A stretch of 38,560 nt of DNA from Ruminococcus sp. (GTDB lineage: Bacteria > Bacillota > Clostridia > Oscillospirales > Ruminococcaceae): assembly GCA_015066845.1 (NCBI GenBank), contig SVNO01000015.1, positions 1 through 38,560 of the forward strand, written 5' to 3'. The notes below the pieces were generated by a model, which did not search any database, was not told the origin of the DNA, and was given only the letters and a program-made list of their open reading frames with translations. Below are positions 6,576-38,560 of the stretch, one piece after another (positions within the stretch are counted from its first letter, which is position 1; each line of letters begins with the position of its first letter). Made by a program: the position numbers and the translations under genes.

Positions 6576-6612
6576 TGTGATATCTCCTATCCATCAGTGA
6601 TGGCATATGTAT

Positions 6613-7101
6613 TCATTTCGATGCTTCTTCGGACTGCTTCGCACGGCTGCGGCAGACGCGTGTTTCATAGGCACACAGCTGCCAGATGGACAGGATGCAG
6701 CAGAGAGAGAACGGCAGGATGGTCGGGGCGATGCGGTCGCGGAAAAGGTCACTGACCGGCTGCATGGTTTCACCGATTGCCGGAAAATTCTGGTCGGCAT
6801 AGGCACAGAAGCGCGAGAGCGTGAACAGGCAGGCACAGATACCGCAGACAGCGCAGACGAGCGCGGCGGCATTGCATTGCCATCGCTGGGGCTTTGCACC
6901 GCAAAGGCAGAGAATGGCAGCGGCGGTCAGGAGGACGGAGCCTGTGCGCATCCAGAATGCAAACGTGGAAAAAACTGCCGGATAGTTTCCGGCATCGACT
7001 TGATATTGCCAGCCTGCCGCGGTCAGCAGGCACATTAACAACGGATAGAGGAGCGTTGTGACAACGAGCGTCACGCGCAGGAAAATCTTCAAAATTTTCA
7101 T
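6613..7101 (-). CDS. Small four-helix membrane protein of unknown function
   Basis: A 162-aa protein with four hydrophobic segments (about residues 5-30, 46-66, 78-98 and 126-144), a charged C-terminal tail (CRSRAKQSEEASK), and many Cys in the membrane part. No family was recognised. It is the first gene of a pair with the large GT-C-like membrane protein 37 bp downstream, so a role beside that enzyme is possible but unproven. The region upstream holds two 39-bp direct repeats and no clear sigma-A promoter. Confidence 0.75.
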   Translation of the reverse strand: MKILKIFLRVTLVVTTLLYPLLMCLLTAAGWQYQVDAGNYPAVFSTFAFWMRTGSVLLTAAAILCLCGAKPQRWQCNAAALVCAVCGICACLFTLSRFCAYADQNFPAIGETMQPVSDLFRDRIAPTILPFSLCCILSIWQLCAYETRVCRSRAKQSEEASK

Positions 7102-7150
7102 TCAGGTATTCTCCAGTGATAAAGTCATCAGTTCTGTCCATGATAAAGGC

Positions 7151-7236
7151 AATGCCGCACAAAGCGATACAGGCTTTTTGCGGTATTGCCTAAATACAAT
7201 ACCGCACGAAGCGATACAGGCTTTTTGCGGTATTGC
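7151..7236. repeat. Two direct 39-bp repeats with internal inverted repeats
   Basis: Copies at 7151-7189 and 7198-7236 differ at only a few bases. Each starts with AATRCCGCA and ends with TGCGGTATTGC, so each copy can fold into a hairpin of 10-12 bp around a loop containing GCGATACAGGC. They fill the divergent region between the membrane-protein operon and spoIVB. A partial third copy occurs near 19512-19534. Confidence 0.85.
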
Positions 7237-7280
7237 ACAAACCGATGTGCATCAATTCGTGCAAAGAAAGCAGGTGAGGA

Positions 7281-8486
7281 ATGGAACAGAAACGAAAAAA
7301 ATGGATTGCAGGTCTGTGCGGTCTTTTGCTGGTACAGCCGGTAGTGATGCTGTTATTCTACGCCGGCAGACTGCCCGACCGCTACTATCTCCGAAGCGGC
7401 GAAACGCTGGAGCTTGCGACAGTTCTGCCGATTACGGCAAAGCCGGTTGCACCTGCGGCATCCGCCTGTGCGGTACAGAATACGCCATCGGCGGTTTCGC
7501 TGCGGTTGTTTGGTATGCTTCCCATAAAAACGGCAGAAATTCAGCAAACAGAAGAAATTATGCTCATTCCCTGCGGACAGGCGTTCGGCATTCGTATGCT
7601 CATGGACGGCATGATGGCAGTCGGCTTCGGGGAAGTCCGGACTGCGCAGGGGGCATGTTGTCCGGCAGCAGAAGCAGGCATACAGGAGGGTGACATCATT
7701 CAGGCAGTCAACCGCAGTCCCATTGGCTCAGCCGAGGCATTCCGTGCGGCGGCAGCGGAGGGAAAGCCGATGCTGCTGACGGTACTGCGCGGCGGCAAAA
7801 CGCTGGACATCACGCTCACACCGGCATACAGTGAGGAGGAGCATTGCTGGCTGACGGGGTTATGGGTACGCGACAGCACAGCGGGCATAGGAACACTGAC
7901 GTATTATGAACCGGAAACGGGGCAATTCGGCGGACTTGGGCATCCCATCTGCGACCCTGACACGGGGGAGCTGATTCCGCTTGCAAGCGGCGAAGCGGAT
8001 GCTGTGACGATACAGGGGGCGATCCGCGGACAGGCAGGCTGTCCGGGGCAGTTACAGGGTTATTTTTCCGCGTCACGTCCGATTGGTACGCTGCAATGCA
8101 ACGACCGCTGTGGATTATTCGGGGAGCTGTACGAAGCTCCGGCAGAGATTCCGGCGATTCCGATGGCACTCAAGCAGGAGATTGTGCTTGGGGAGGCAGT
8201 GATACTCAGCACGGTGCGCGGTGACAGTCCGGAGATGTTCACGGTAGAGATCACGGACATTGACTATCGTTCCGACACACAGAACATGGTCATTGAGGTA
8301 ACGGATGAGGCATTGCTTGCAGCGACAGGGGGGATCGTACAGGGCATGAGTGGCAGTCCGATTTTGCAGAATGGCAGGCTGATCGGAGCAGTCACGCATG
8401 TTTTTGTAAGCGACCCATCGCAGGGCTACGGCATATTTGCAGAAAGCATGTATGAAGTGAGTGAAAGCATTGCCGCACAGGGATGA
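7281..8486 (+). CDS. spoIVB: SpoIVB-type serine peptidase (sporulation)
   Basis: A 401-aa protein with one N-terminal membrane anchor (about residues 8-28), a PDZ domain (about 95-180, with AAEAGIQEGDIIQAVN) and a C-terminal S55 peptidase domain. That domain carries GGLGHPI (His221, probable catalytic His) and GIVQGMSGSPI with the nucleophilic Ser near 357-359, then GAVTHVFV. In Bacillus, SpoIVB is made in the forespore under sigma-G, crosses into the intermembrane space and triggers pro-sigma-K processing by cleaving SpoIVFA. Length matches the family (about 425 aa in B. subtilis). The start at 7281 has AGGTGA just upstream. It is not next to spo0A or recN, its usual neighbours. Its presence implies the organism is, or descends from, a spore former. 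Confidence 0.93.
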   Translation: MEQKRKKWIAGLCGLLLVQPVVMLLFYAGRLPDRYYLRSGETLELATVLPITAKPVAPAASACAVQNTPSAVSLRLFGMLPIKTAEIQQTEEIMLIPCGQAFGIRMLMDGMMAVGFGEVRTAQGACCPAAEAGIQEGDIIQAVNRSPIGSAEAFRAAAAEGKPMLLTVLRGGKTLDITLTPAYSEEEHCWLTGLWVRDSTAGIGTLTYYEPETGQFGGLGHPICDPDTGELIPLASGEADAVTIQGAIRGQAGCPGQLQGYFSASRPIGTLQCNDRCGLFGELYEAPAEIPAIPMALKQEIVLGEAVILSTVRGDSPEMFTVEITDIDYRSDTQNMVIEVTDEALLAATGGIVQGMSGSPILQNGRLIGAVTHVFVSDPSQGYGIFAESMYEVSESIAAQG

Positions 8487-8512
8487 AAAATGGGGCTGCA
8501 TCGCGCAGCCCC
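8487..8512 (-). terminator. Terminator of the HPr gene
   Basis: An 8-bp perfect stem, GGGGCTGC/GCAGCCCC (8492-8499, 8505-8512), is followed on the minus strand by ATTTTTCATC. It lies 17 bp after the HPr stop codon and directly abuts the 3' end of spoIVB, which it may also terminate. Confidence 0.8.
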
Positions 8513-8528
8513 GAAAAGTGCAAATCTG

Positions 8529-8801
8529 TTATCTGTTGTCGTCGCTGAAGCCGCTTTCAACCAGCTCAACCAGAGCATCTACAGCTGCCTGCTCGTCAGA
8601 GCCGTCAGCGATGATGCGGATATCAGTGCCGCCTACGATACCGAGGGACAGGATACCCAGCAGGCTCTTAGCGTTTACTCGACGCTCCTTCTTTTCGATC
8701 CAGATAGAGGACTTGTACTCATTTGCCTTCTGGATAAAGAAGGTTGCCGGTCTTGCGTGAAGGCCAACCTGATTCTGAACTGTAACATCTTTCACAAACA
8801 T
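8529..8801 (-). CDS. ptsH: Phosphocarrier protein HPr
   Basis: A 90-aa HPr-family protein. HPr carries phosphate from enzyme I to sugar-specific EIIA proteins and, when phosphorylated on Ser46 in Gram-positives, acts as a CcpA corepressor. The active-site motif GLHARPA places His at residue 15 and the regulatory motif NAKSLLGI places Ser at 46, exactly the canonical numbering when translation starts at 8801. An ATG two codons earlier (8807) lies only 3 nt from the Shine-Dalgarno GGGAG, so 8801 is preferred. No enzyme I gene is adjacent. It is monocistronic with its own promoter (8862-8890) and terminator. Confidence 0.95.
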   Translation of the reverse strand: MFVKDVTVQNQVGLHARPATFFIQKANEYKSSIWIEKKERRVNAKSLLGILSLGIVGGTDIRIIADGSDEQAAVDALVELVESGFSDDNR

Positions 8802-18675: not shown

Positions 18676-19437
18676 TTACAGTGCAGCTACCAGTCCGATA
18701 GTATACTTCAGAATCAGCAGTGCGTCAGATGCGGTGGGCTTGCCGTCGCCGTCCACATCCGCATTTTCTGTGCCGCCCTCACGCAGCGGTACACCCTCCA
18801 GCAGGTTGCGGTTGAGTACGAGAACATCTACAATGCTCACTTCACCGTCACAGTTGGCATCACCCATCATTTCACCCTTGGTTTCGGCTACGATGGCAAT
18901 ACCGCCGTCCTTCCATGCTACTTCGCCCAGTTCTGCGTAATAGCTTGCCGTTGTTGTGTCGTTCCAGATATGGGGTACATACTCGGATTCACAGTAATCA
19001 ACCTTGTAAAAATCGCCGACTGCTGCCGTTTCCGGTACTGTCACATAATAACACGCCATAATACCGCAGCCCTTTGTCGGTTTTGCTGATGCCCATGTCA
19101 TCCAGCTTACCTCCGGACTGGTACTGGTGGTCATGGTGAATAATACCGTCTCACCATCCGGTGTTTCATGCCCGATTTCGGACACGATCTCATAGGTACA
19201 GCGTTCATCAACCTGCACACCGAATTCAATGGCATTCACGCCCGGATTGGAGTTCACAGCAACCGTCACCGGTACACGGTACTCCATTTCCTTGAGCTGT
19301 GCCAGTGTCAGCTTGACCTGCTCGACCTCTACATTGATTTTCTTCTCTGCCGCCTGCGCGGAAATACCCATGGATGCTGTCAGCATCGCAGCTGCCGACA
19401 GTACTGTGGCTGCCTTTGCCATGAATTTTTTCATCAT
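18676..19437 (-). CDS. Secreted cohesin-like/dockerin protein
   Basis: A 253-aa protein with a signal peptide (about residues 1-29, ending AQA). It has a beta-sandwich domain of about 150 residues with cohesin-like features (VPVTVAVNSNPGVNAIEFGV near the start; YYVTVPETAAVGDFYKVDY later). A C-terminal dockerin carries DANCDGEVSIVD and DVDGDGKPTASD. This one-cohesin-like, one-dockerin plan resembles small adaptor scaffoldins such as R. flavefaciens ScaC, but the domain could equally be a non-binding relative. AAGGAG lies 5 bp before the ATG at 19437, with a second ATG one codon later. Own promoter at 19557-19585. Confidence 0.85.
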   Translation of the reverse strand: MMKKFMAKAATVLSAAAMLTASMGISAQAAEKKINVEVEQVKLTLAQLKEMEYRVPVTVAVNSNPGVNAIEFGVQVDERCTYEIVSEIGHETPDGETVLFTMTTSTSPEVSWMTWASAKPTKGCGIMACYYVTVPETAAVGDFYKVDYCESEYVPHIWNDTTTASYYAELGEVAWKDGGIAIVAETKGEMMGDANCDGEVSIVDVLVLNRNLLEGVPLREGGTENADVDGDGKPTASDALLILKYTIGLVAAL

Positions 19438-19511
19438 TTTTACTCCTTCCATCTTCGTGCATACCGTGCATTCCCTCCAATGCACGGACAGTTTCGTATG
19501 CATAACGTACA

Positions 19512-24818: not shown

Positions 24819-25343
24819 TTATTCCTCCGCCTCTGCCGGAGCATCCTTCTTCTTGCGGAATACGATCAGCTTGCTGATGAAGTAATTCGACAGCGTGATG
24901 ATCACCTGCTGAAGGAAGTAGAACAGGGCATAGATGATGATATTCTTCGAGCCGTCCTCGCGCACATAGAACAGCGTTGCTACCTGCATGATGAGCACGG
25001 TCATCCCCCATGTGACAAGTCTGCCGGAAATAAACGTCCAGAATTCCCACATGAGCTGCCGGAATTCCTTTGCTTCACTCTTAAAGACATAGACCTTATT
25101 CACATAGAACGCGAAAATCACGGCAACTGTCCATGCAGTCGTGGTGGAAATGAAATTCTCCACGTTCGGCGACCAGTCCACCAGTGCGAGCAGTCCGAAT
25201 TCCACACCGAACTGCACAATGGTGTTGACGATGGTCGTCAGTACACCATAGTATATGTACACGATCAACTCCTCAAAGCGGTCATAGAGCTTCTTCAGGG
25301 GCTTGGGGAGGAGCTTGACACAGAAATGCAGAAATGCTTCCAT
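24819..25343 (-). CDS. GtrA-like four-helix membrane protein
   Basis: A 174-aa protein with four predicted membrane helices and the GtrA family pattern: YYGVLTTIVNTIVQF in helix 1, AWTVAVIFAFYVNKVYVF around helix 2, ISGRLVTWGMTVLIMQV in helix 3, and a terminal NYFISKLIVFRKKK. GtrA proteins are linked to moving undecaprenyl-phosphate-linked sugars across the membrane for cell-wall polysaccharide. No glycosyltransferase is adjacent. GAAAGGA lies upstream of the ATG at 25343. It lies 70 bp after htpG, from which there may be readthrough. Confidence 0.88.
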   Translation of the reverse strand: MEAFLHFCVKLLPKPLKKLYDRFEELIVYIYYGVLTTIVNTIVQFGVEFGLLALVDWSPNVENFISTTTAWTVAVIFAFYVNKVYVFKSEAKEFRQLMWEFWTFISGRLVTWGMTVLIMQVATLFYVREDGSKNIIIYALFYFLQQVIITLSNYFISKLIVFRKKKDAPAEAEE

Positions 25344-25413
25344 AGTGTTGTCCTTTCAAAAAAATGGCATTTGCCTCCCTCCAGATTGCGCCGGAAAGAG
25401 GCGATGCGTTGGT

Positions 25414-27291
25414 TTACATTAACTCACAAATCAGATTAGAGAATGCTACCGGATCATCCACCGGCATACCCTCAATCAGAAGTGCCTGATTGTAGAGCAG
25501 CTGGCTGTACTTCTTCAGCTTCTCATCATCCGTACCATGCAGTGCGGTCAGGCGTTCAAATACCGGATGCTTGGGGTTGATTTCCATTACCAGCTTTGCC
25601 TGTACCTTATTCTCTGTCGGCATTGCATTGAGTACCTTTTCCATCTCCAGTGTCAGGTCGCCCTCACTGGTCAGGCAGACAGGATGGCTCTTCAGGCGGC
25701 TGGAGAGTGTAACTCTCTGTACTCTGCCGTCAAGTGCACTGCACATCACGTCAAACATTGCCTTGCCGGCTTCCTTCTTCTCGTCAAGCTCTTTCTTTTC
25801 TTCCTCGGTGTCAAGGTCAATATCATTTGCAGATACGGACTTGAACTGTTTGTCCTGATAGGACATCATTGTCTTGACTGCGAATTCATCCACATTGTCA
25901 AGGAAGAACAGGATCTCGTAGCCCTTTTCCAGTACGGCTTCCGTCTGGGGCAGGGATTTGATGCGCTCGATGGAAGAACCGGTTGCGTAGTAGATTTCTT
26001 TCTGGGATTCGGGCATGTTCTCCACATATTCTGCAAGTGTAACGGGCTTGTCCCCTCTGGAAGAATGGAACAGCAGCAGATCCTGCAATGCCTCCTTGTG
26101 CATACCATAATCACTGTATACACCGTATTTCAGCTGCAAGCCGAATGCTTCGAAGAACTGCTCGTACTTCTCACGGTCGCTCTTGAGCATGGAGGTCAGC
26201 TGGCTGTGAATGGTCTTTTCAATGCTCTTGGCAATGAGCTTGAGCTGGCGGTCGTGCTGGAGCATTTCACGGGAAATGTTCAGGGACAAATCCTCGGAAT
26301 CCACCAGACCGCGTACAAAGCTGTAATAATCCGGCAGCAGGTCGCCGCACTTGTCCATAATCAGTACACCGTTGGTGTAGAGCTGCAAGCCCTTTTCGTA
26401 ATCTCTGGAATAGAAATCGTAGGGGGCTTTGGACGGGATATACAGCAGTGCGTCATAGGAAATCATTCCCTCATTGTGCACATGCTTGTATGCCATGGGC
26501 GGCATATAATCAACAAATTTCTCCTGATAGAAATTGTTGTAATCATCATCCGTCAGCTCTGTACGGTTCTTTCTCCACAGCGGTACCATGCTGTTGAGCG
26601 TGTCGAGAGTGTACTGGGTTTCGTACTCATCCTCCGTACCATCTGCAAGCACCTGATGACCGATCTCCATCTGAATGGGGAAACGGATGTAGTCGGAATA
26701 CTTCTTGACCAATGCCTGAATGCGGTACTGTTCGAGGAACTCGCTGTAGTTTTCCTCCTCGGAATCCTCCATCAGCTCCAGAACGATCTGTGTGCCGTGG
26801 GTTGCCTTGTCGCATTTGTGGATGGTGTAGCCCTCCACGCCCTCGGAAGTCCACTGGTACGCTTCATCCTGTCCGAACGCCTTGGAATATACCGTCACAC
26901 GCTTTGCCACCATGAATGCGGAATAGAAGCCGACACCGAACTGACCGATGATCTGCTGATCCTCACCGAGCTTGTTGTCGGTCTTGAATTGCAGAGAACC
27001 GCTGCTTGCGATCGTACCGAGGTTGTGTTCCAGCTCCTCGGCAGTCATACCAATGCCGTTATCGGTAATGGAAATGGTTCTCGCGTCCTTGTCCACATCA
27101 ATGCGGATGCAGAAATCATCCTTATTCATGCCCACGCTGTCATCCGTCAGGGACTGGAAATACAGCTTGTCGATGGCATCACTTGCATTGGAAATCAGTT
27201 CACGCAGGAAAATCTCCTTATGTGTATAAATCGAATGAATCATCATGTCCAGCAGTTTTTTGGATTCTGCCTGAAATGCCTTTTTCTCCAT
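25414..27291 (-). CDS. htpG: Chaperone protein HtpG (bacterial Hsp90)
   Basis: A 625-aa ATP-dependent Hsp90 chaperone. The GHKL ATPase domain has LRELISNASDAIDKL (about 29-43), SITDNGIGMTAEEL and GQFGVGFYSAFMVA. The middle domain (about 230-500) and C-terminal dimerisation domain are present. Length is normal for the family. The ATG at 27291 has AGAGGA 8 bp upstream. The gene lies under a perfect CIRCE operator, so it should be repressed by HrcA and induced by heat or protein damage. In B. subtilis htpG is not CIRCE-controlled. Confidence 0.97.
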   Translation of the reverse strand: MEKKAFQAESKKLLDMMIHSIYTHKEIFLRELISNASDAIDKLYFQSLTDDSVGMNKDDFCIRIDVDKDARTISITDNGIGMTAEELEHNLGTIASSGSLQFKTDNKLGEDQQIIGQFGVGFYSAFMVAKRVTVYSKAFGQDEAYQWTSEGVEGYTIHKCDKATHGTQIVLELMEDSEEENYSEFLEQYRIQALVKKYSDYIRFPIQMEIGHQVLADGTEDEYETQYTLDTLNSMVPLWRKNRTELTDDDYNNFYQEKFVDYMPPMAYKHVHNEGMISYDALLYIPSKAPYDFYSRDYEKGLQLYTNGVLIMDKCGDLLPDYYSFVRGLVDSEDLSLNISREMLQHDRQLKLIAKSIEKTIHSQLTSMLKSDREKYEQFFEAFGLQLKYGVYSDYGMHKEALQDLLLFHSSRGDKPVTLAEYVENMPESQKEIYYATGSSIERIKSLPQTEAVLEKGYEILFFLDNVDEFAVKTMMSYQDKQFKSVSANDIDLDTEEEKKELDEKKEAGKAMFDVMCSALDGRVQRVTLSSRLKSHPVCLTSEGDLTLEMEKVLNAMPTENKVQAKLVMEINPKHPVFERLTALHGTDDEKLKKYSQLLYNQALLIEGMPVDDPVAFSNLICELM

Positions 27292-29597: not shown

Positions 29598-32225
29598 ATG
29601 AGCACAAAATACGTTTATCAGTTCAATGAGGGCGACGCTTCTATGCGCAACACCCTCGGTGGTAAGGGTGCAAACCTGGCTGAGATGACCAACATGGGTC
29701 TTCCGGTACCGCAGGGCTTCACCATTTCTACTGAGGCTTGCACAAAGTACTATGAAGACGGTCGTCAGATCAACGATGAAATCATGGCTGAAATCATGAA
29801 GAACATCGAAATCATGGAAGAAAGAGTCGGCAAGAAGTTCGGCGATAAGGAGAATCCGCTTCTCGTTTCCGTTCGTTCCGGCGCAAGAGCTTCCATGCCC
29901 GGTATGATGGATACCATCCTCAACCTCGGTCTGAACGAGGAAGTTGTTGAGTTCATGTCCGCTAAGTCCGGTAATCCCAGATGGGCTTGGGACTGCTACA
30001 GAAGATTCATCCAGATGTATTCTGACGTAGTTATGGAAGTTGGTAAGAAGTACTTCGAAGAACTCATCGACCAGATGAAGGAAAAGAAGGGCGTTACACA
30101 GGACGTTGAGCTGACTGCTGATGACCTCAAGGAACTGGCTGGCCAGTTCAAGGCTGAGTACAAGTCCAAGATCGGCGAGGACTTCCCGACCGATCCCAAG
30201 GAGCAGCTGATCGGTGCTGTTAAGGCTGTATTCCGCAGCTGGGACAACCCCCGTGCAAACGTATATCGTCGTGACAACGACATTCCGTACAGCTGGGGTA
30301 CTGCTGTAAACGTACAGATGATGGCATTCGGCAACATGGGCGATGACTGCGGTACTGGTGTTGCGTTCACTCGTGATCCTGCTACAGGCGAAAAGAAGCT
30401 CATGGGCGAGTTCCTGACAAATGCACAGGGCGAGGACGTAGTTGCTGGTGTTCGTACACCCATGCCGATCGCTCAGATGGCTGAAAAGTTCCCGGCTGCA
30501 TTCGAGCAGTTCAAGGAAGTTTGCCAGATTCTGGAAAACCACTACAGAGATATGCAGGATATGGAGTTCACTGTTGAGAACGAGAAGCTCTACATGCTGC
30601 AGACAAGAAATGGTAAGAGAACTGCACAGGCTGCACTGAAGATTGCTTGCGACCTCGTTGACGAAGGCATGAGAACAGAGCAGGAAGCTGTTGCAATGAT
30701 CGATCCGAGAAACCTCGACACTCTGCTGCACCCGCAGTTCGATGCAAAGGCTCTGAAGGCAGCTACTCCCATGGGCAAGGGTCTGGGCGCATCCCCTGGC
30801 GCAGCTTGCGGTAAGATTGTATTCACAGCTGATGACGCTGTTGAGTGGGCTGAGAGAGGCGAAAAGGTTGTTCTGGTTCGTCTGGAAACATCCCCTGAGG
30901 ATATCACAGGTATGAAGTCTGCACAGGGCATCCTGACCGTTCGCGGTGGTATGACTTCTCACGCTGCTGTAGTTGCTCGTGGTATGGGTACATGCTGCGT
31001 ATCTGGCTGCGGCGACATCAAGATGGACGAAGAGAACAAGAAGTTCGAGCTGGCTGGCAAGACATTCGTTGAGGGTGACTTCATCTCCATCGACGGTTCT
31101 ACCGGTAACATCTATGACGGCATCATCCCGACTGTTGACGCTCAGATCGCTGGCGAATTCGGCAGAATCATGGCTTGGGCTGACAAGTACAGAGTTCTGA
31201 AGGTTCGTACAAATGCTGATACACCGGCTGACGCTAAGAAGGCTCGCGAGCTGGGTGCAGAAGGTATTGGTCTGTGCCGTACAGAGCACATGTTCTTCGA
31301 GGCTGACAGAATCGCTGCATTCCGTGAGATGATCTGCTCTGACACTGTTGAAGAGAGAGAAGCTGCTCTGGCTAAGATCGAACCGATGCAGCAGGCTGAC
31401 TTTGAGGCTCTGTACGAGGCTCTGGAAGGCTGCCCGGTTACTATCCGTTTCCTGGATCCGCCTCTGCATGAATTCGTTCCCACTGAGGAAGCTGACATTG
31501 CTGCACTGGCTGCTGCACAGGGCAAGAGCGTTGAGACTATCAAGGCTATCATTTCCGGTCTGCACGAGTTCAACCCGATGATGGGTCACCGTGGCTGCCG
31601 TCTGGCTGTAACATATCCGGAAATCGCTGCAATGCAGACAAAGGCAGTTATCAAGGCTGCTATCAACGTACAGAAGGCTCATCCGGATTGGACAATCGTT
31701 CCGGAAATCATGATTCCGCTGGTAGGCGAAATCAAGGAGCTGAAGTATGTAAAGAAGGTTGTTGTAGAAACTGCTGACGCTGTTATCGCTGAAGCTGGCG
31801 TAGAGCTGAAGTATGAAGTTGGTACAATGATCGAGATTCCGAGAGCATGTCTGACAGCTGACGAAATCGCTAAGGAAGCTGAGTTCTTCTGCTTCGGTAC
31901 AAACGACCTGACACAGATGACATACGGTTTCTCCAGAGATGACGCTGGTAAGTTCCTGAACGCTTACTATGATGCTAAGATCTTCGAGAACGATCCGTTT
32001 GCAAAGCTCGACCAGACTGGCGTTGGCAAGCTGATGGAAATGGCTATTACCAATGGTAAGGCTGTACGTCCTGAGATGCACGTTGGTATCTGCGGCGAGC
32101 ACGGCGGCGACCCGACATCTGTTGAGTTCTGCCACAAGCTGGGTCTGACCTATGTATCCTGCTCTCCGTTCCGTGTTCCGATCGCAAGACTGGCTGCTGC
32201 ACAGGCTGCTATCGCAAGTAACTAG
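29598..32225 (+). CDS. ppdK: Pyruvate, phosphate dikinase
   Basis: An 875-aa enzyme interconverting pyruvate, ATP and phosphate with phosphoenolpyruvate, AMP and pyrophosphate. In anaerobic clostridia it often runs as a glycolytic pyruvate-forming enzyme. The N-terminal ATP-grasp domain has GGKGANLAEM and SVRSGARASMPGMMDT. The central swivelling domain has the catalytic phospho-His in GGMTSHAAVVARGMG (His455). The C-terminal PEP/pyruvate TIM barrel has GLCRTEHMF, MGHRGCRL, and GICGEHGGDP. Length matches clostridial PPDK (about 874 aa). GGAGG lies 9 bp upstream. Codon use is strongly biased (GCT, GTT, AAG, CGT), unlike neighbours, which fits very high expression. Confidence 0.98.
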   Translation: MSTKYVYQFNEGDASMRNTLGGKGANLAEMTNMGLPVPQGFTISTEACTKYYEDGRQINDEIMAEIMKNIEIMEERVGKKFGDKENPLLVSVRSGARASMPGMMDTILNLGLNEEVVEFMSAKSGNPRWAWDCYRRFIQMYSDVVMEVGKKYFEELIDQMKEKKGVTQDVELTADDLKELAGQFKAEYKSKIGEDFPTDPKEQLIGAVKAVFRSWDNPRANVYRRDNDIPYSWGTAVNVQMMAFGNMGDDCGTGVAFTRDPATGEKKLMGEFLTNAQGEDVVAGVRTPMPIAQMAEKFPAAFEQFKEVCQILENHYRDMQDMEFTVENEKLYMLQTRNGKRTAQAALKIACDLVDEGMRTEQEAVAMIDPRNLDTLLHPQFDAKALKAATPMGKGLGASPGAACGKIVFTADDAVEWAERGEKVVLVRLETSPEDITGMKSAQGILTVRGGMTSHAAVVARGMGTCCVSGCGDIKMDEENKKFELAGKTFVEGDFISIDGSTGNIYDGIIPTVDAQIAGEFGRIMAWADKYRVLKVRTNADTPADAKKARELGAEGIGLCRTEHMFFEADRIAAFREMICSDTVEEREAALAKIEPMQQADFEALYEALEGCPVTIRFLDPPLHEFVPTEEADIAALAAAQGKSVETIKAIISGLHEFNPMMGHRGCRLAVTYPEIAAMQTKAVIKAAINVQKAHPDWTIVPEIMIPLVGEIKELKYVKKVVVETADAVIAEAGVELKYEVGTMIEIPRACLTADEIAKEAEFFCFGTNDLTQMTYGFSRDDAGKFLNAYYDAKIFENDPFAKLDQTGVGKLMEMAITNGKAVRPEMHVGICGEHGGDPTSVEFCHKLGLTYVSCSPFRVPIARLAAAQAAIASN

Positions 32226-32425: not shown

Positions 32426-33898
32426 CTACTGTGAAAGATATTCTTCAAACGTCAGTTCTCCGCCGCTGCCGGCATACGCTGCATATTCCAGTATCTTTGC
32501 GGCATCGGTTGCATCGAATACACCATCATTGTTTACGTCAGCTGCGGATTTATATCCGTTATTCAGCCCCGTATCAGTTCCAGAACCGGAAGCGGCGGCG
32601 GCTGTCAGAATGGAAGCGGCATCAGCGGCATCTATGGTGCTGTCCGTGTTGAGGTCGCCCGAAGCATAGGTGGATTGGTAAGCAGTGCGGTTGCCGATAC
32701 CGTAGGGAACTTTTGTAATATCCTTGAATAGATCAACAAAACTTGCAGATGATTCCCAATATGGAACATACATTTTCTCAAAACCGTCTGTAAAATAGAT
32801 ACATGCTTTATCTGTGTAATCCGTAAAATTGTTGTCATAAATGATTAGTTTTCCGGTATAGACAGTGTCCTGATACTGCCACTCTCCATACTCAACACCA
32901 TAAGCAACAACACTGTGCATTCCCAAGTCCACACTATAGGAAAGCATCACAGGTACACTCTGTTCCATATCAGAAAGAAATGCACCGCTTTCAATATATT
33001 CATGATCAGAATCCGTGTGCATTTGATACTGGAATGAATTCGTATAAATTGTTTGCATGAAATAATATGTCACTGCTTCAATTGCTTCTTGGCAGAATGG
33101 AACATCATGCAGTGTTTCCGCACCCTCATAAATTGAAGAAGGGTCAAGCGCACCTACACTTGCCATATAGGAAGCAAGAGCCAACCCTCCACATGCACCC
33201 TGATAATCCAGTTTCAGCAAGTTATCTTTGCGTGCCTTATACCACATAAAGCTATCCGGATGGGATACTTCAAGATAATGCAAAAGCGTTTCATCACTGA
33301 GAATATATTCGGTCAACTGTTGATTCGTAAAACTCCAGTTATCTTCACCGTTCACAAATTTATTTTTCTCACTGCTTACTTGATTATGATTCGTCTGTAT
33401 ACAGGCATTTTCCAAAGTTTTATTTGATGTACCAATGGTCACAGCATCCCATTGTGCGTCCGTTCCCTGAAACATCACATCGCACAGATTGTCACAGCCT
33501 TCAAATGCACCTTCACCAATGGAGGTAATCGTTTCCGGCAAAATGATCGTTGTCAGCTTGGAACATCCTGCAAACCAGCCATCGGGAACTGCTGTAAGAT
33601 TGTCGGGAAGTTTAATTATGCATATTTTATCGTTATTCAACCCAGTAGAAGGTCTTTCCTTATCCGGTGTAATACCTCCTTCGGCAAGCACTGTGACAGG
33701 AATTCCTTCAATTTCATCCGGAAAATATACTTCACTGCCTCCGGAACATCCAGTTATCTCAATATGATCTCCATGATTGATATAGCTGTAACTCCCACCG
33801 ATGTCATTATCAATGTACTTGTTATCTTCGGCAGAAGCAGTCAAACAATTGAATGGCATCACACTCAAACATAACCAAAACGCTATCATTTTTCTCAT
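32426..33898 (-). CDS. Secreted LRR / papain-like cysteine protease / dockerin protein
   Basis: A 490-aa secreted protein with a signal peptide (about 1-23) and a short BspA-type LRR block (about 35-155, with ILPETITSIGEGAFEGCDNL). It then has a domain of about 200 residues with a papain-like triad in order: Cys236 in YQGACGGLALAS, His328 in GMHSVVAYGVE, and Asp355 in LIIYDNN. A C-terminal dockerin has DLNTDSTIDAAD and DVNNDGVFDATD. Peptidase activity is inferred from the triad layout; the exact clan member is not certain. TGGAG lies 8 bp before the ATG at 33898; an ATG two codons earlier is too close. It follows the cohesin-like gene after 96 bp and is probably part of the agrB transcript or has its own promoter. 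Confidence 0.85.
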   Translation of the reverse strand: MRKMIAFWLCLSVMPFNCLTASAEDNKYIDNDIGGSYSYINHGDHIEITGCSGGSEVYFPDEIEGIPVTVLAEGGITPDKERPSTGLNNDKICIIKLPDNLTAVPDGWFAGCSKLTTIILPETITSIGEGAFEGCDNLCDVMFQGTDAQWDAVTIGTSNKTLENACIQTNHNQVSSEKNKFVNGEDNWSFTNQQLTEYILSDETLLHYLEVSHPDSFMWYKARKDNLLKLDYQGACGGLALASYMASVGALDPSSIYEGAETLHDVPFCQEAIEAVTYYFMQTIYTNSFQYQMHTDSDHEYIESGAFLSDMEQSVPVMLSYSVDLGMHSVVAYGVEYGEWQYQDTVYTGKLIIYDNNFTDYTDKACIYFTDGFEKMYVPYWESSASFVDLFKDITKVPYGIGNRTAYQSTYASGDLNTDSTIDAADAASILTAAAASGSGTDTGLNNGYKSAADVNNDGVFDATDAAKILEYAAYAGSGGELTFEEYLSQ

Positions 33899-33922
33899 GT
33901 TCATCACTCCAACCATATACTA

Positions 33923-33994: not shown

Positions 33995-34906
33995 TCATTC
34001 AGAAGGATACAGGTGCAAACGTTCAGCAGGAACAATAAAGGTGATTTCTCTTCCAATAGAGCCAGTATAGTTAGCGACGCTTCCCGCCCCTACCATAGAA
34101 GAATAATCAAGAATATCTGCTGCATCTACGTTATCAATATACTTGCTCTGATCTGCATCAGGTGCAGAATAATGAGATGCCTCCTCAAAGTAGCCATCAA
34201 CAATGTCCCAGTTCATACCGACAACATCAAAATCTGTTCCATATTCCGCCAAAAGCATAAGAATATTTGCAGCGTCAACAGAATCAACCGGTGCATACAT
34301 TACTTCATTGTCCTCATTTCTGACAAGCTCTTCATTGTTTGTATCTCCAATAATATAAGTATCAAATACGGTAGTTGCTGCCGAAGTAGGAACTACTGTA
34401 GTAGAGGAAACCATACTGATTTCACCAGTAGCAATTTCCGCATCTGTATCATCAATAGAAACGAAAGCAGTTGTTGCTGTTGCAGTATCCGTAGTAAAAT
34501 ACACGGTAAACAGTGCACCATCAGCATTGCTTGTCATAGCAGATGCACTTACCACACACAGAGTTGCTTCATCATCCGAAACAGCGGCGGATGTCATCGC
34601 ATTTGCCAGTACCGCACCCTTGTCCACAATCGGCTTGCCATCGTTGTTTGTAAGTACGCTGTAACCCTCATCGATGTCGAGTGTCAGTGTATTGGCATTG
34701 AAGCCAGTGTTGTTGTCAATGGACATAGTCACTGCCACTGCACCAACAGGTACTGTGCTGCCATCATCAGTTGTGATTGCAGATGTCAGCGTTTCATAGG
34801 AAACAGAATACGCATTGATACCTGCTGCGGATACCGGCATTGCAGCGATGGAAGCCAGAATGGCTGCTGCGGATACGATGGACATTGTTTTTCTGATCTT
34901 TTTCAT
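33995..34906 (-). CDS. Secreted cohesin-like/dockerin-like protein directly after agrB
   Basis: A 303-aa protein with a signal peptide (about 1-27, ending VSA). A beta-sandwich domain of about 150 residues has cohesin-like strands (AVTMSIDNNTGFNANTLTLD; ADGALFTVYF). A divergent C-terminal dockerin has a first calcium loop interrupted by about 15 residues (GDTNNE...VDSVDAANIL) and a normal second loop (DADQSKYIDNVDAADIL). The GTG at 34915 is possible, but the ATG at 34906 has GGAGG 8 bp upstream. This ribosome-binding site and start lie inside the agrB frame, where agrD normally begins; there is no Cys-containing autoinducer motif. It is therefore probably translated from the agrB transcript. 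Confidence 0.82.
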   Translation of the reverse strand: MKKIRKTMSIVSAAAILASIAAMPVSAAGINAYSVSYETLTSAITTDDGSTVPVGAVAVTMSIDNNTGFNANTLTLDIDEGYSVLTNNDGKPIVDKGAVLANAMTSAAVSDDEATLCVVSASAMTSNADGALFTVYFTTDTATATTAFVSIDDTDAEIATGEISMVSSTTVVPTSAATTVFDTYIIGDTNNEELVRNEDNEVMYAPVDSVDAANILMLLAEYGTDFDVVGMNWDIVDGYFEEASHYSAPDADQSKYIDNVDAADILDYSSMVGAGSVANYTGSIGREITFIVPAERLHLYPSE

Positions 34907-35489
34907 TACATTCACCTCCGTTTCTAAAAATTTCTACAGCCATCGCCACTGCCACAGAAAGCATTGTGGCGGTAATCAGTACCGCATACTTCACTTGATG
35001 CACCCCATACCATAGAACAAATGATACAATGGAAAGGATTACCCCGTAGAGAATGCAAAGCTGCTTATGTTTCTTCTTTTGTGATTCTTCCAACGGTTTG
35101 TTCGGATTTTCGACAGGAGCAAACTGTGCTGCTGTCAGAAAATAAATCAGAAGAAACATAATATGACCACTCAGACTGTAATAGGACGCTGCAAATTTCA
35201 CCCAGAACAAAACGATGACCAGATTGATTGTGTAGATCGTGTTGCATTTCAGATATGTTTCCGCATGATAACCGCCGCTGCTGCTGCGAATCCATGCAAA
35301 CATGATGAAGAACAGCACCGCAGAAATCAGCTCCCCGAATACCAGTCCGCAGCACAGAACAATGAGGATATTGACAGCCGTGGATAACACCATCTCTAAT
35401 CCGTATTGATAGATCTCTGCTTCGGCTTCTTCAATGATGCGATTTCTGATGAACACATTCACAATTCTGGAGGATAGTCTTGGGATCAC
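34794..35489 (-). CDS. agrB: AgrB-like peptide-processing membrane endopeptidase
   Basis: A 231-aa polytopic membrane protein of the AgrB/AccessoryGeneRegulatorB family, which cleaves the AgrD propeptide and forms its thiolactone. The catalytic pair is in GGYHAETYLKC (His75 and Cys82, the same spacing as His77/Cys84 of S. aureus). About five to six membrane helices follow the usual pattern. It starts at GTG 35489 with AGGAGG 8 bp upstream. Family members end near residue 195, about where this one reads VEIFRNGGECNE; the last 37 residues are hydrophilic and encoded in another frame of the next gene, so the native stop seems to have been lost. No agrD was found. Confidence 0.9.
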   Translation of the reverse strand: MIPRLSSRIVNVFIRNRIIEEAEAEIYQYGLEMVLSTAVNILIVLCCGLVFGELISAVLFFIMFAWIRSSSGGYHAETYLKCNTIYTINLVIVLFWVKFAASYYSLSGHIMFLLIYFLTAAQFAPVENPNKPLEESQKKKHKQLCILYGVILSIVSFVLWYGVHQVKYAVLITATMLSVAVAMAVEIFRNGGECNEKDQKNNVHRIRSSHSGFHRCNAGIRSRYQCVFCFL

Positions 35490-35543: not shown

Positions 35544-35572
35544 TGGGAAATCTGGTATCATTTCTGGGATAA
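35544..35572. promoter_or_regulatory. Candidate LytTR-regulator sites upstream of agrB
   Basis: TGGGAAAT (35544-35551) and TGGGATAA (35565-35572) are direct repeats with starts 21 bp apart, immediately upstream of the -35. The spacing of two helical turns suits a LytTR dimer such as AgrA. The same TGGGAAA core occurs three times near the agrA start on the opposite strand. Binding is not shown. Confidence 0.4.
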
Positions 35573-35596
35573 TTTGCAAAATTTTACTCTTGACGC

Positions 35597-35647: not shown

Positions 35648-36958
35648 TTATTCTTCCTGCGGCAGCCATACACTGGCGATAAACCAACCGCCTTCCTCAT
35701 AGTATTCCATCATTCCGCCGCAGCGGCTGACGATTTCACGGATGCTCTGTACACCAATGCCGTGGCATTCGCTGTCCGCTTTGGTTGTTTTCAGCTCCGC
35801 ATTTTTCTTCAGAACAGACTTTTCAATTCTATTTTTCACAAGAACCGTGTAATAGCTTTTCTGCTTTGTCAGAATGACCTCGACTTTCGGTTCATGAATT
35901 TTCTCACTGGCTTCGATCGCATTGTCCAGCAGATTGGAAAGCAGAATGCACAGATCAACTGAATCACAGGAGGGCTTGGTATCGTCTGTTTTCAGAGAGA
36001 TGTCAATGTTCTTCTTCCTGCACAGTTCCATTTTCACTGTAAGTACGGCTCGGAGGAACTGATCGGGAATCAGAATATGGGCAGTGGATATTTCCGGATT
36101 TTTCTGAATCAGCTTTTGCAGATAATCACTCGCATCTGCCGCATTCTGATTTTCCTTCAGCATTTCCTGCAAGCAGAACAGATGGTTGAGATGGTCATGA
36201 TTGCTCTGCCGGATCTTGCTTTGCAGAATATCCATCTGTTCCAAAGCCTGCTTTTGCTGTGAAACCTGCAATTCCAGAAGTGACATTTGTCTTGATTTTT
36301 CATTCTGTGCAGAGATCTGCATGAGCATAATAAACATGAAAATATTGATGCATACAATTCCAAAAAAGCAAAGAAAATAAGGTGGTGTCAACGCCGCATT
36401 TTGTTCAAGTCCGATCTCAATGACCGCAATGCCCATACAAAGAGAAATGAAAAGAATCCCTGATATCAGCAACCATTCCCGCTGCTTTAAATGGATGCCC
36501 TTCTTGAACATTACTAAGATCATTCGGGTTGCCAAAAAGAACAGCAGTTTTGTTACAATAATACAAAAGAAACGATAGCCATCCTGTTCTGTAAACAGGC
36601 TCGATGTTGTAAGGCTGAAGATGGATGAACAAATTATGTTTACAAATATGTTAATAATAAATATCAGTCCAAAGGATACGATCGGCAGAAAAAACTTTGA
36701 AAACACCGCACCTTTTAAGAACAGAACACCGTACAAAATCGCAACACCCATGCAAACCAATGTCAGCATTCCGCTGAATGCGGTAAAAACACTGATCCCC
36801 ATACTGAGTATTGTGTCGAGCAGAATGAATGCTGCAAAGATCAGATTATCCTTGAGCGGTGGGTGTTTGGGCGAATGAAACCGTCTACAGAAATCGAAGA
36901 TCACCCAGTTTTCCACTAATGCTGCAAGCCACTCCGTCACCGTCCAGAATATCGTCAT
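35648..36958 (-). CDS. agrC: AgrC-like sensor histidine kinase (GHKL family)
   Basis: A 436-aa membrane kinase. Six or seven hydrophobic segments (residues 5-215) form the likely peptide-sensing domain. After a coiled coil (about 217-250) comes the phosphoacceptor segment IRQSNHDHLNHL (His254). The GHKL ATPase has an N box LLSNLLDNAIEA and a G box HGIGVQSIREIV. This is the HPK10 class found in AgrC, ComD and VirS-type systems. The ATG at 36958 has AGGGGG 8 bp upstream; GTG 36967 overlaps the agrA stop. It lies 5 bp after agrA. It should autophosphorylate in response to a peptide and pass phosphate to the response regulator. Confidence 0.92.
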   Translation of the reverse strand: MTIFWTVTEWLAALVENWVIFDFCRRFHSPKHPPLKDNLIFAAFILLDTILSMGISVFTAFSGMLTLVCMGVAILYGVLFLKGAVFSKFFLPIVSFGLIFIINIFVNIICSSIFSLTTSSLFTEQDGYRFFCIIVTKLLFFLATRMILVMFKKGIHLKQREWLLISGILFISLCMGIAVIEIGLEQNAALTPPYFLCFFGIVCINIFMFIMLMQISAQNEKSRQMSLLELQVSQQKQALEQMDILQSKIRQSNHDHLNHLFCLQEMLKENQNAADASDYLQKLIQKNPEISTAHILIPDQFLRAVLTVKMELCRKKNIDISLKTDDTKPSCDSVDLCILLSNLLDNAIEASEKIHEPKVEVILTKQKSYYTVLVKNRIEKSVLKKNAELKTTKADSECHGIGVQSIREIVSRCGGMMEYYEEGGWFIASVWLPQEE

Positions 36959-36963
36959 CACGA

Positions 36964-37710
36964 TCACCCCCTTGAAAAATACAAAAACTTCTGGCTGACT
37001 GTCGCTTCATGACTGCGGCTGACCGCAAGCTCCAGACCGTTATCCAGCCGAACAGTATTTTTCTGGATGGCATAGATATAGCGGTAATTGACAAGGATAC
37101 TGGAGTGAATACGGATAAAACCATTGTTTTCAATCTCCGCCTGTACCTCGTCCAGTTTTTTGCGAACCTTGATAATCTCCTCCGGCTGTTCCCGTTTTGC
37201 CCCTGTTTTCTGCGGTTTTTTCACCATATGGAAATAAACATAATTTTTCTCACTGTCGATGTAAACCACATCCTTCAGCGGAATCTGCAATACCTGCTTG
37301 CCGCTTTGCACAGTATAAAGCTTCCGCATGGCGGTAATTTTTGCTTGCAGTACGGAAAGCATATTGTCAATCTCCTGCTCAAATAACGGCTTACGCAAAA
37401 AACCGATGGGCATGTATTTGAGCATGGTGTAGACTTCATCGTTACAGCAGTTTGTTACATAAACAAGCAGGAGTGCCGGATCAATTTTCGTCAGCTCTGC
37501 AGACAGGGCATCGCCGTTCAGCTCCGGCATTTCAATGTCCAGAAATGCCGCATCAAAGCTGCCCGCACGATAGTCCTCCAGAAATTTCCGGCTGCTTTGA
37601 AAAATGGATAATGTCACTGCAACGCCCAATTGTTCAGCGTGATGCTGTGTGGACTTTGCAACGGATTTTGCAATGTGCAGTTCATCATCCACAATTGCAA
37701 TGCGAATCAT
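36964..37710 (-). CDS. agrA: AgrA-like LytTR-family response regulator
   Basis: A 248-aa regulator. The receiver domain (1-120) has the acidic pair IVDDE, the phosphoacceptor Asp58 in FLDIEMP and the Lys near FLRKPL. The C-terminal LytTR DNA-binding domain (about 140-245) has YIDSEKNYVYF and GFIRIHSSILVNYRYI. It contains an insertion rich in Lys/Gln (KKPQKTGAKREQPEE) in the LytTR domain. GGAGG lies 8 bp before the ATG at 37710. It is the first gene of the agrA-agrC operon, placed before the kinase, which is the reverse of S. aureus order. Confidence 0.95.
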   Translation of the reverse strand: MIRIAIVDDELHIAKSVAKSTQHHAEQLGVAVTLSIFQSSRKFLEDYRAGSFDAAFLDIEMPELNGDALSAELTKIDPALLLVYVTNCCNDEVYTMLKYMPIGFLRKPLFEQEIDNMLSVLQAKITAMRKLYTVQSGKQVLQIPLKDVVYIDSEKNYVYFHMVKKPQKTGAKREQPEEIIKVRKKLDEVQAEIENNGFIRIHSSILVNYRYIYAIQKNTVRLDNGLELAVSRSHEATVSQKFLYFSRG

Positions 37711-37853: not shown

Positions 37854-38560
37854 TCACTTTTCTTCCCATTTTCTCCGCACACGCTCAAGCCCAGCCCAGA
37901 TGTTTCTCCATGCCTGAAGTTCACTGTCCGGATACAGCTTTATGAGCTTCTCAATTGCCGCACGTTTCGCCTTGTTTACGCCGTTTTCCGTCATTAGTTC
38001 AAGTACAGCAATCTCACTGGCTGTCAGCATTTCGTAGCCGAACACCCCGAATGTGTGTCCGAGAATGCACCGTTCTTTGCCGGAGAGCTGATCGAATAGC
38101 AGCTGTAATCGTTCGGTGCAGCCATTACGGAATGTAATTTTTTCAGGCGATTCCTGCAGCTTGTCAGCAAATACCTCCTGTTCGTAGGGATCGAAATCTT
38201 CCTCATCGGACAAATCATGGGCAGAGAAGAAATGCAGATCATAGCCGATGTATCCATCCAGAACCAGCCGTTCTATGCCGAGCTGTTCGCAGATATCCTC
38301 CGCTGTGCGACCATCCGCCCAGAGCCGCTTGGCTTTGATAATCTGCTGCATTTCCTCTCTGGAAACCGCAAGATTTCCGAGATTTTGTTCAAGATAACGG
38401 TGCATTGCCCCCAGTATGAACGGTGCTGCGTAGGTTGGAAAGCTTCCCTGCTCCGGAACATAGCTGTTCCGCTTGATGAGCAGCAGAACTGCAAGCCTTC
38501 CCTCCTGTTCAAGGTCAGGGAGAGCGTCCGGAGAGCAGCCGTATTTTCGCAGTAACCGCT
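37854..38560 (-). CDS. Sigma-70-like protein, C-terminal part (cut by window edge)
   Basis: About 235 residues are visible and the frame is open to the right edge; the ATG at 38405 is internal. The upstream part reads DLEQEGRLAVLLLIKR, then GSFPTYAAPFILGAMHRYLE, which is a sigma-70 region 2 pattern (the family usually has DLxQEGxxAL and FSTYAxPxIxGxIxRYL). A middle helical region (SREEMQQIIKAKRLW...EDICEQLGI) looks like region 3. The C-terminal part (LSGKERCILGHTFGVFGYEMLTASEIA) resembles region 4 but is divergent. It may be a specialised or degenerate sigma factor. It lies 144 bp upstream of agrA, same strand. Confidence 0.72.
   Translation of the reverse strand, partial: RLLRKYGCSPDALPDLEQEGRLAVLLLIKRNSYVPEQGSFPTYAAPFILGAMHRYLEQNLGNLAVSREEMQQIIKAKRLWADGRTAEDICEQLGIERLVLDGYIGYDLHFFSAHDLSDEEDFDPYEQEVFADKLQESPEKITFRNGCTERLQLLFDQLSGKERCILGHTFGVFGYEMLTASEIAVLELMTENGVNKAKRAAIEKLIKLYPDSELQAWRNIWAGLERVRRKWEEK

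Follow-up and report, generated by a model that had tools for sequence, protein, structure and literature searches.

What becomes of an agr locus when agrD, the gene of its signal precursor, is missing beside agrB and the gene of an exported protein starts in its place? This question is raised by a 38,560-nt stretch of DNA, here called the window, from contig SVNO01000015.1 of a Ruminococcus sp. MAG (GCA_015066845.1; genome G000, a single MAG of 106 contigs that is 93% complete). On the minus strand, read from 37710 to 32426, agrA, agrC and agrB are followed by an exported open reading frame of 303 aa and by the gene of an LRR-dockerin protein, these last two forming what we call the cassette:

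36964..37710, minus strand: agrA, LytTR response regulator (PF04397 52.4 bits, PF00072 38.9 bits)
35648..36967, minus strand: agrC, GHKL sensor kinase (PF14501 81.7 bits)
35544..35573, minus strand: putative AgrA/LytTR-type direct repeat upstream of agrB, ATTATCCCA-N12-GATTTCCCA, found by pattern search
34794..35489, minus strand: agrB, membrane peptidase of 231 aa with a GTG start (PF04647 144.2 bits)
34904..34906, minus strand: start codon of the exported gene, at the same position as the agrD start codon in the relatives L015 and L016
33995..34906, minus strand: exported protein of 303 aa with a cohesin-like N-terminal and a dockerin-like C-terminal part (Foldseek, homology, by eye)
32426..33916, minus strand: LRR and dockerin protein, next gene downstream (LRR_5 44.3 bits, Dockerin_1 32.1 bits)

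The frames of AgrA, AgrC and AgrB are uninterrupted and close to full length. PF14501, PF04397 and PF00072 all score above their cut-offs, which places an AgrC-type kinase and a LytTR regulator at the locus; the best NCBIfam match of AgrC is the staphylococcal AgrC model, at 58.3 bits, short of its cut-off of 500. AgrB covers positions 1-183 of the 185 of the PF04647 profile and keeps its catalytic pair, His75 and Cys82. The original prediction, that AgrB is intact at its His/Cys pair and that agrA and agrC adjoin it, therefore holds, with profile matches for agrC (36967-35648) and agrA (37710-36964). We compared 84 AgrB loci, 65 of them distinct, drawn from the genus (38 genomes, G000 included), from the order and from the relatives of L016, taking the best-scoring places only. 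The closest agr loci found were L015 and L016, the only two relatives confirmed in one scan of genome contigs. Identity of the window's proteins to theirs is 59-60% for AgrA, 60% (L015) and 57% (L016) for AgrC, and 54-55% for AgrB, in which His75 and Cys82 have identical numbering; in trees the window proteins cluster with those of L015 and L016 (100/100 for AgrC and AgrA, 99/99 for AgrB).

We searched for agrD over the 38 genomes of the genus with a profile of 22 chosen AgrD-like peptides (A1) and with NCBIfam TIGR04223. On the window's contig, A1 gave no match at E <= 5, and TIGR04223 gave a single one of 13.3 bits (cut-off 19) at 19363-19440, within a 290-aa frame. A relaxed scan of the 1598 stop-to-stop frames of the window returned as its best match (E 0.081) 11 residues of a 21-residue frame, and nothing AgrD-like in the frame of the exported protein. 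Beside the window's agrB, agrD is thus found neither by A1, nor by TIGR04223 at its cut-off, nor by the relaxed scan, in agreement with the first reading of the letters: three of the defining agr parts are present and agrD beside agrB is absent. A search for an agrD remnant between the cassette and gene 29598-32225 gave nothing above noise. Weak A1 matches on two other contigs of G000, C37 (E 0.25) and C18 (E 1.1), were discarded since neither is built like AgrD, these being a 33-residue frame without a start Met and a C-terminal piece fronting a 63-residue frame.

A missing agrD at an agr locus is uncommon, not unique. The best A1 match lies just downstream of agrB at 42 of the 65 distinct AgrB loci, just upstream at 10 and more than 1 kb away at three, with none in the flanks of the remaining 10; A1 having been built from some of these loci, the matches arise partly by construction, and some are fragments below 20 bits. 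Among the 10 loci without a match, agrD lies upstream in G020:C1 (by TIGR04223) and beyond the flank in C81 of G000, and L015 is cut by the contig end; agrD is unmatched at 7 of the 65, the window, G023:C84 and G011:C54 included. At G011:C54 (L076 6908-8012, plus strand), agrA-agrC-agrB stand without an agrD match at the locus and a 183-aa frame directly follows agrB; the G011 genome (78% complete) gave no agrD by A1 or at the TIGR04223 cut-off.

The comparison with L015 and L016 bears directly on how the window lost its agrD. The ATG of the exported frame, at 34906, lies inside agrB, whose last 113 nt overlap it in a different frame. Counted from the start of agrB, this ATG and the agrD ATG of both relatives stand at the same distance, 583 nt (the agrD of L016 has a further in-frame ATG earlier, at 574, and the L015 contig stops within agrD), and the agrB DNA of the window aligns with theirs free of gaps as far as this start codon. 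Judged from the aligned sequences, the shared offset and the gap-free alignment are together more than chance. In L015 and L016 agrD overlaps the end of agrB, and AgrB ends at 200 aa, against 231 aa in the window; a run-on tail of 37 residues as a normal feature of AgrB is thereby ruled out. Since agrD sits at exactly this place in the relatives and their AgrB is without the tail, the agrB stop and agrD were lost together, and AgrB reaches 231 aa because of that loss. From its first residues on, the exported protein aligns with a cohesin protein of G020:C1; hence the start codon, around ATGAAAAAG, is where one homology, to agrB, gives way to another, to the cohesin protein. Neither of the two genomes of L015 and L016 (0 of 2) holds a relative of the exported protein. 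What had been proposed of this junction, namely that the ATG at 34906 stands where agrD normally starts, that agrB reads 113 nt out of frame into the 303-aa frame, and that the original agrB stop and agrD were lost, is borne out by the related genomes. The same offset, the ungapped agrB alignment and the absence of agrD from the contig argue that a cohesin/dockerin export cassette took the place of agrD, with the exchange at the agrD start codon, leaving a receiver-type agr; we adopt this reading tentatively, as one that falls somewhat short of an even chance.

The signal peptide of the exported protein was read by eye. A search with a five-sequence profile brought up cohesin chains of R. flavefaciens, at E-values (0.025 and 0.028) that exceed the usual limit. 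The AlphaFold2 model has a mean pLDDT of 54.6 and is fair only at residues ~31-140, for which the nearest solved fold given by Foldseek is the type III cohesin of ScaE from Ruminococcus flavefaciens (2zf9; E 1.3e-4, TM 0.27 of the query and 0.44 of the target). Six PDB matches reach E <= 0.001 and all are cohesins (TM 0.25-0.28 of the query), the TM-scores being low because over half of the model is poor. A cohesin fold is thus predicted for the N-terminal part. Unlike the ScaE cohesin, to which it is 15-16% identical, the exported protein is short, has a dockerin-like end and sits in an agr locus. This end was recognized as dockerin-like by eye and has no Pfam match; Dockerin_1 matches one of five relatives, at E 0.0043. 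The downstream gene, 32426-33916, shows by eye a resemblance to cysteine proteases between its LRR and dockerin parts. A homolog occupies the same place in G020:C1 (49%); the closest ones, in G020:C41 (50%) and G022:C37 (49%), lie in stretches in which no agr gene was seen, which counts against a link of the cassette to agr.

Relatives of the exported protein at E <= 0.001 were found in 9 of the 38 genomes of the genus, G000 included, seven of them matching over the cohesin part, and G023 and G031 over the C-terminal part only. In G020:C1, the gene of a 62% homolog (25141-25959) begins 15 nt past the end of agrB, and an agrD survives between agrC and agrB. The AgrB of G023:C84 follows its profile to position 153 of 185 and then continues, in the same frame, as a dockerin-like end (L056 2992-3915, minus strand; PF04647 111.6 bits, Dockerin_1 21.4 bits, just missing the cut-off of 22.9), and an agrD above the TIGR04223 cut-off sits on another contig of G023, C29. 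With these genes as tblastn queries, relatives lie within ~1.5 kb at 3 of the 12 AgrB places found in the genus, and no relative was found at the other AgrB loci examined (L001-L055). In G030:C144 a different dockerin gene comes after agrD. Because dockerin genes are so common in this genus, having one as a neighbour is by itself weak evidence; more weight falls on the shared cohesin family, which has one place in G000 and one in G020, both behind agrB. Given cohesin/dockerin genes behind agrB in two congeners, with agrD kept in one of them, the exported gene seems to be a repeated companion of agr loci rather than a stand-in for the signal precursor. The window's agr proteins are only distantly similar to those of G020:C1 (AgrA 26%, AgrC 24%, AgrB 28% identity) and of G023:C84 (AgrA 23%, AgrC 28%, AgrB 35%). 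That the agr trio groups with L015 and L016 while the exported protein is 62% identical to one encoded behind a different agrB counts for replacement. Sequence comparison shows the position of the exported gene, the absence of agrD, the loss of the agrB stop and, in two congeners whose agr proteins are unrelated, kindred genes after agrB.

No agrB was seen in the stretches examined around five cohesin relatives (L070-L074), which likewise counts against a link of the cassette to agr. Cohesin relatives were found after or inside pairs that appear, by eye, to encode an ECF sigma factor and its anti-sigma factor:

L070 3167-6867: apparent ECF sigma/anti-sigma context (by eye)
L072 4003-6826: apparent ECF sigma/anti-sigma context (by eye)
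L073 792-3300: apparent ECF sigma/anti-sigma context (by eye)
L074 4932-6841: apparent ECF sigma/anti-sigma context (by eye)

In three species (L069, L056 and L078) the integrase of a related MobL-relaxase/integrase element is directly followed by agrA-agrC-agrB; their agr proteins are very different and so is their exported cargo. G020:C1, G023:C84 and G061:C97 have in common a MobL relaxase, at 50-65% identity to the G020 one, and an integrase, at 72-74%, both just upstream of agrA; the G061 integrase is split over two frames. The elements of G020:C1 and G023:C84 resemble the window in that agrA-agrC-agrB are followed by cohesin/dockerin genes. The window differs in its agr proteins, 23-35% identical to theirs, and in having no relaxase or integrase relative: tblastn (E 1e-4) gave no match in it to the relaxases of the three elements or to the integrases of G020 and G023. 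The contig ends 850 nt upstream of agrA. There, at 37854-38558 on the minus strand, lies a sigma-70 family gene truncated by the contig end (TIGR02937 35.5 bits, below the cut-off), which has no relative among the loci compared. A plasmid collection gave no match to 34500-35489, and the viral contigs covered, in 2 of 8 scans, yielded no confirmed relative of either AgrB or the cohesin family.

Of the measures of base composition, GC3 differs between the two parts of the locus. Among seven window genes measured, GC3 is 0.52 for agrB, 0.51 for agrC, 0.53 for agrA and 0.57 for gene 29598-32225, against 0.345 and 0.382 for the two cassette genes, which suggests that the cassette is the newcomer and counts for replacement; total GC is alike (agr 0.43-0.46, cassette 0.42-0.44). 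Five agr genes measured in L015 and L016 have a GC3 of 0.22-0.28. By dinucleotide signature, the agr part comes closest to the G020:C1 stretch (38; the values are 55 for the rest of the window and 69 for C81), and a mobile element may therefore have brought in agr as well; the value of 55 falls within the 26-103 spread of same-size window pieces, and the signature therefore does not decide.

We analysed the region upstream of agrB with a repeat pattern drawn from the window site and from L015 and L016. In G000 the pattern occurs without mismatch at one site only and with two mismatches at two, the reversed control giving 0; its ten matches in 176 loci reduce to three places, namely the window, L015 and L016, and the chance expectation in the window is 0.06. 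The promoter scan listed no minus-strand site for agrB, its 14 sites in total being no more than in shuffles, and the hexamers TTGCAA and TATCTT, read by eye before agrB, fall below its limit. A terminator read by eye between agrC and agrB was not retained, since the scan lists it on the plus strand only. The open frames of AgrA, AgrC and AgrB and the AgrA-type repeat shared with L015 and L016 count for a receiver. The anatomy and the history of the locus come from comparison; for sensing, binding and expression, we infer that AgrC would sense a cyclic peptide, produced either by other cells or from the agrD of C81, and that phosphorylated AgrA would bind the repeat at 35544-35573 and drive agrB and the exported proteins, a surface protein of cohesin type and the neighbour that bears a dockerin. 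On this view the locus would work as a receiver with an output switch and no self-amplification, and its AgrB would have no local substrate. Weighing against replacement are the single MAG, the total GC that does not separate the two parts, the possibly foreign agr, the absence of an agrB site from the promoter scan and the abundance of dockerin genes in the genus.

The strongest competing account sees the locus as a remnant broken not long ago: agrD would have been destroyed when the cassette recombined in, the frames would be open only for lack of time, and no signalling would take place. An agrB that runs into the new gene without a tidy stop fits this account, as does G023:C84, where in the same neighbourhood AgrB breaks off at profile position 153 of 185 and is joined to a dockerin-like end. 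However, the three agr genes and the AgrA-type repeat are all intact, and two other species likewise have a cohesin/dockerin gene after agrB; we regard the remnant as rather unlikely.

A further explanation is that the signal is supplied from elsewhere in the same genome. One agrD of G000, on contig C81 (13542-13664), exceeds the TIGR04223 cut-off; it encodes a complete AgrD with a Ser ring and QPKEP, and lies ~0.46 kb upstream of agrA in the order agrD-agrA-agrC-agrB:

L057 5543-5665 (agrD) and 6127-8792, plus strand: second agr locus of G000

Either AgrB could process its peptide, which the window's AgrC would then detect, and the cell would thereby make up for the loss by itself. The original prediction had allowed for a substrate encoded elsewhere, and such a gene does exist, but it adjoins its own agrA, agrC and agrB, whose AgrB and AgrC are 35% and 24% identical to those of the window. 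In addition, the window's AgrC is of the L015/L016 type, whose AgrD ring differs, and we hold supply from C81 to be improbable. Since the assembly is 93% complete and split into 106 contigs, a further agrD could be missing from it. The precursor anticipated was a Cys-containing peptide, and the one that the genome yielded carries Ser instead. Among the AgrD-like peptides of A1 (loci L004-L054), 18 of the 22 chosen rows have Ser at the ring position (GAAS....QPKEP) and 4 have Cys; the Ser-bearing peptides would form lactones, not thiolactones. As Ser mostly replaces Cys, a Cys-only search would miss them.

An assembly or binning artefact could have joined the agr locus of one organism to the cohesin gene of another. 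This is a single MAG of 106 contigs, the join falls at a start codon, a short common word, and the best relatives of agr and of the cassette belong to different groups. Yet the same cohesin gene family stands behind agrB in G020:C1, and the GC3 of the window's agr genes is unlike that of L015 and L016 and near that of gene 29598-32225. Searching G000 with 181 bases across the junction gave no other exact match longer than 15 nt (best partial match 80% over 41 nt), and the longest exact word across the junction in the other loci compared is 15 nt, which makes a misjoin through a long repeat unlikely. The longest repeat flanking the cassette is 9 nt, inverted. We consider an artefact quite improbable. 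That AgrB processes the exported protein or its signal peptide in place of AgrD, as the idea of a different substrate would have it, is very improbable indeed, since beyond gene overlap and position no positive support was found, the relatives are homologous from the N-terminus where no agrB was seen (L070, L071, L072) and the frame gives no AgrD-like match.

Replacement of agrD by the cassette remains the reading that we prefer. The window shares with agrBDCA systems the AgrB peptidase, the AgrC kinase, the LytTR-type AgrA and, putatively, the promoter-side direct repeat; it differs from them in having no agrD at the locus and a cohesin/dockerin gene that starts at the agrD position of its nearest relatives. 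In Clostridioides difficile, agrB1D1 is an incomplete agr locus without agrC1 and agrA1 (PMC10602386); like the window, it would depend on parts encoded elsewhere, but it misses the sensor and the regulator, whereas the window misses the signal precursor. In the open-licence literature we found no report of an agr locus with agrD replaced by a cohesin/dockerin gene, nor one linking agr peptide signalling to cohesin/dockerin surface assembly. More speculatively, and as an unlikely generalization, agr could act in this genus as a regulatory front end that is mobile, with recombination pairing unrelated agrA-agrC-agrB sets with exported cohesin/dockerin cassettes so that surface scaffolding answers cyclic peptides; in the lineage of the window the cassette would have taken the agrD start codon, leaving a listen-only receiver of the neighbours' peptides. 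Searches for agrD must allow Ser in the ring and must also look for the gene ahead of agrB or agrA. The locus brings peptide signalling and cohesin/dockerin surface assembly together, and an agr system able to hear but not to speak would amount to naturally occurring eavesdropping on signals in the gut.
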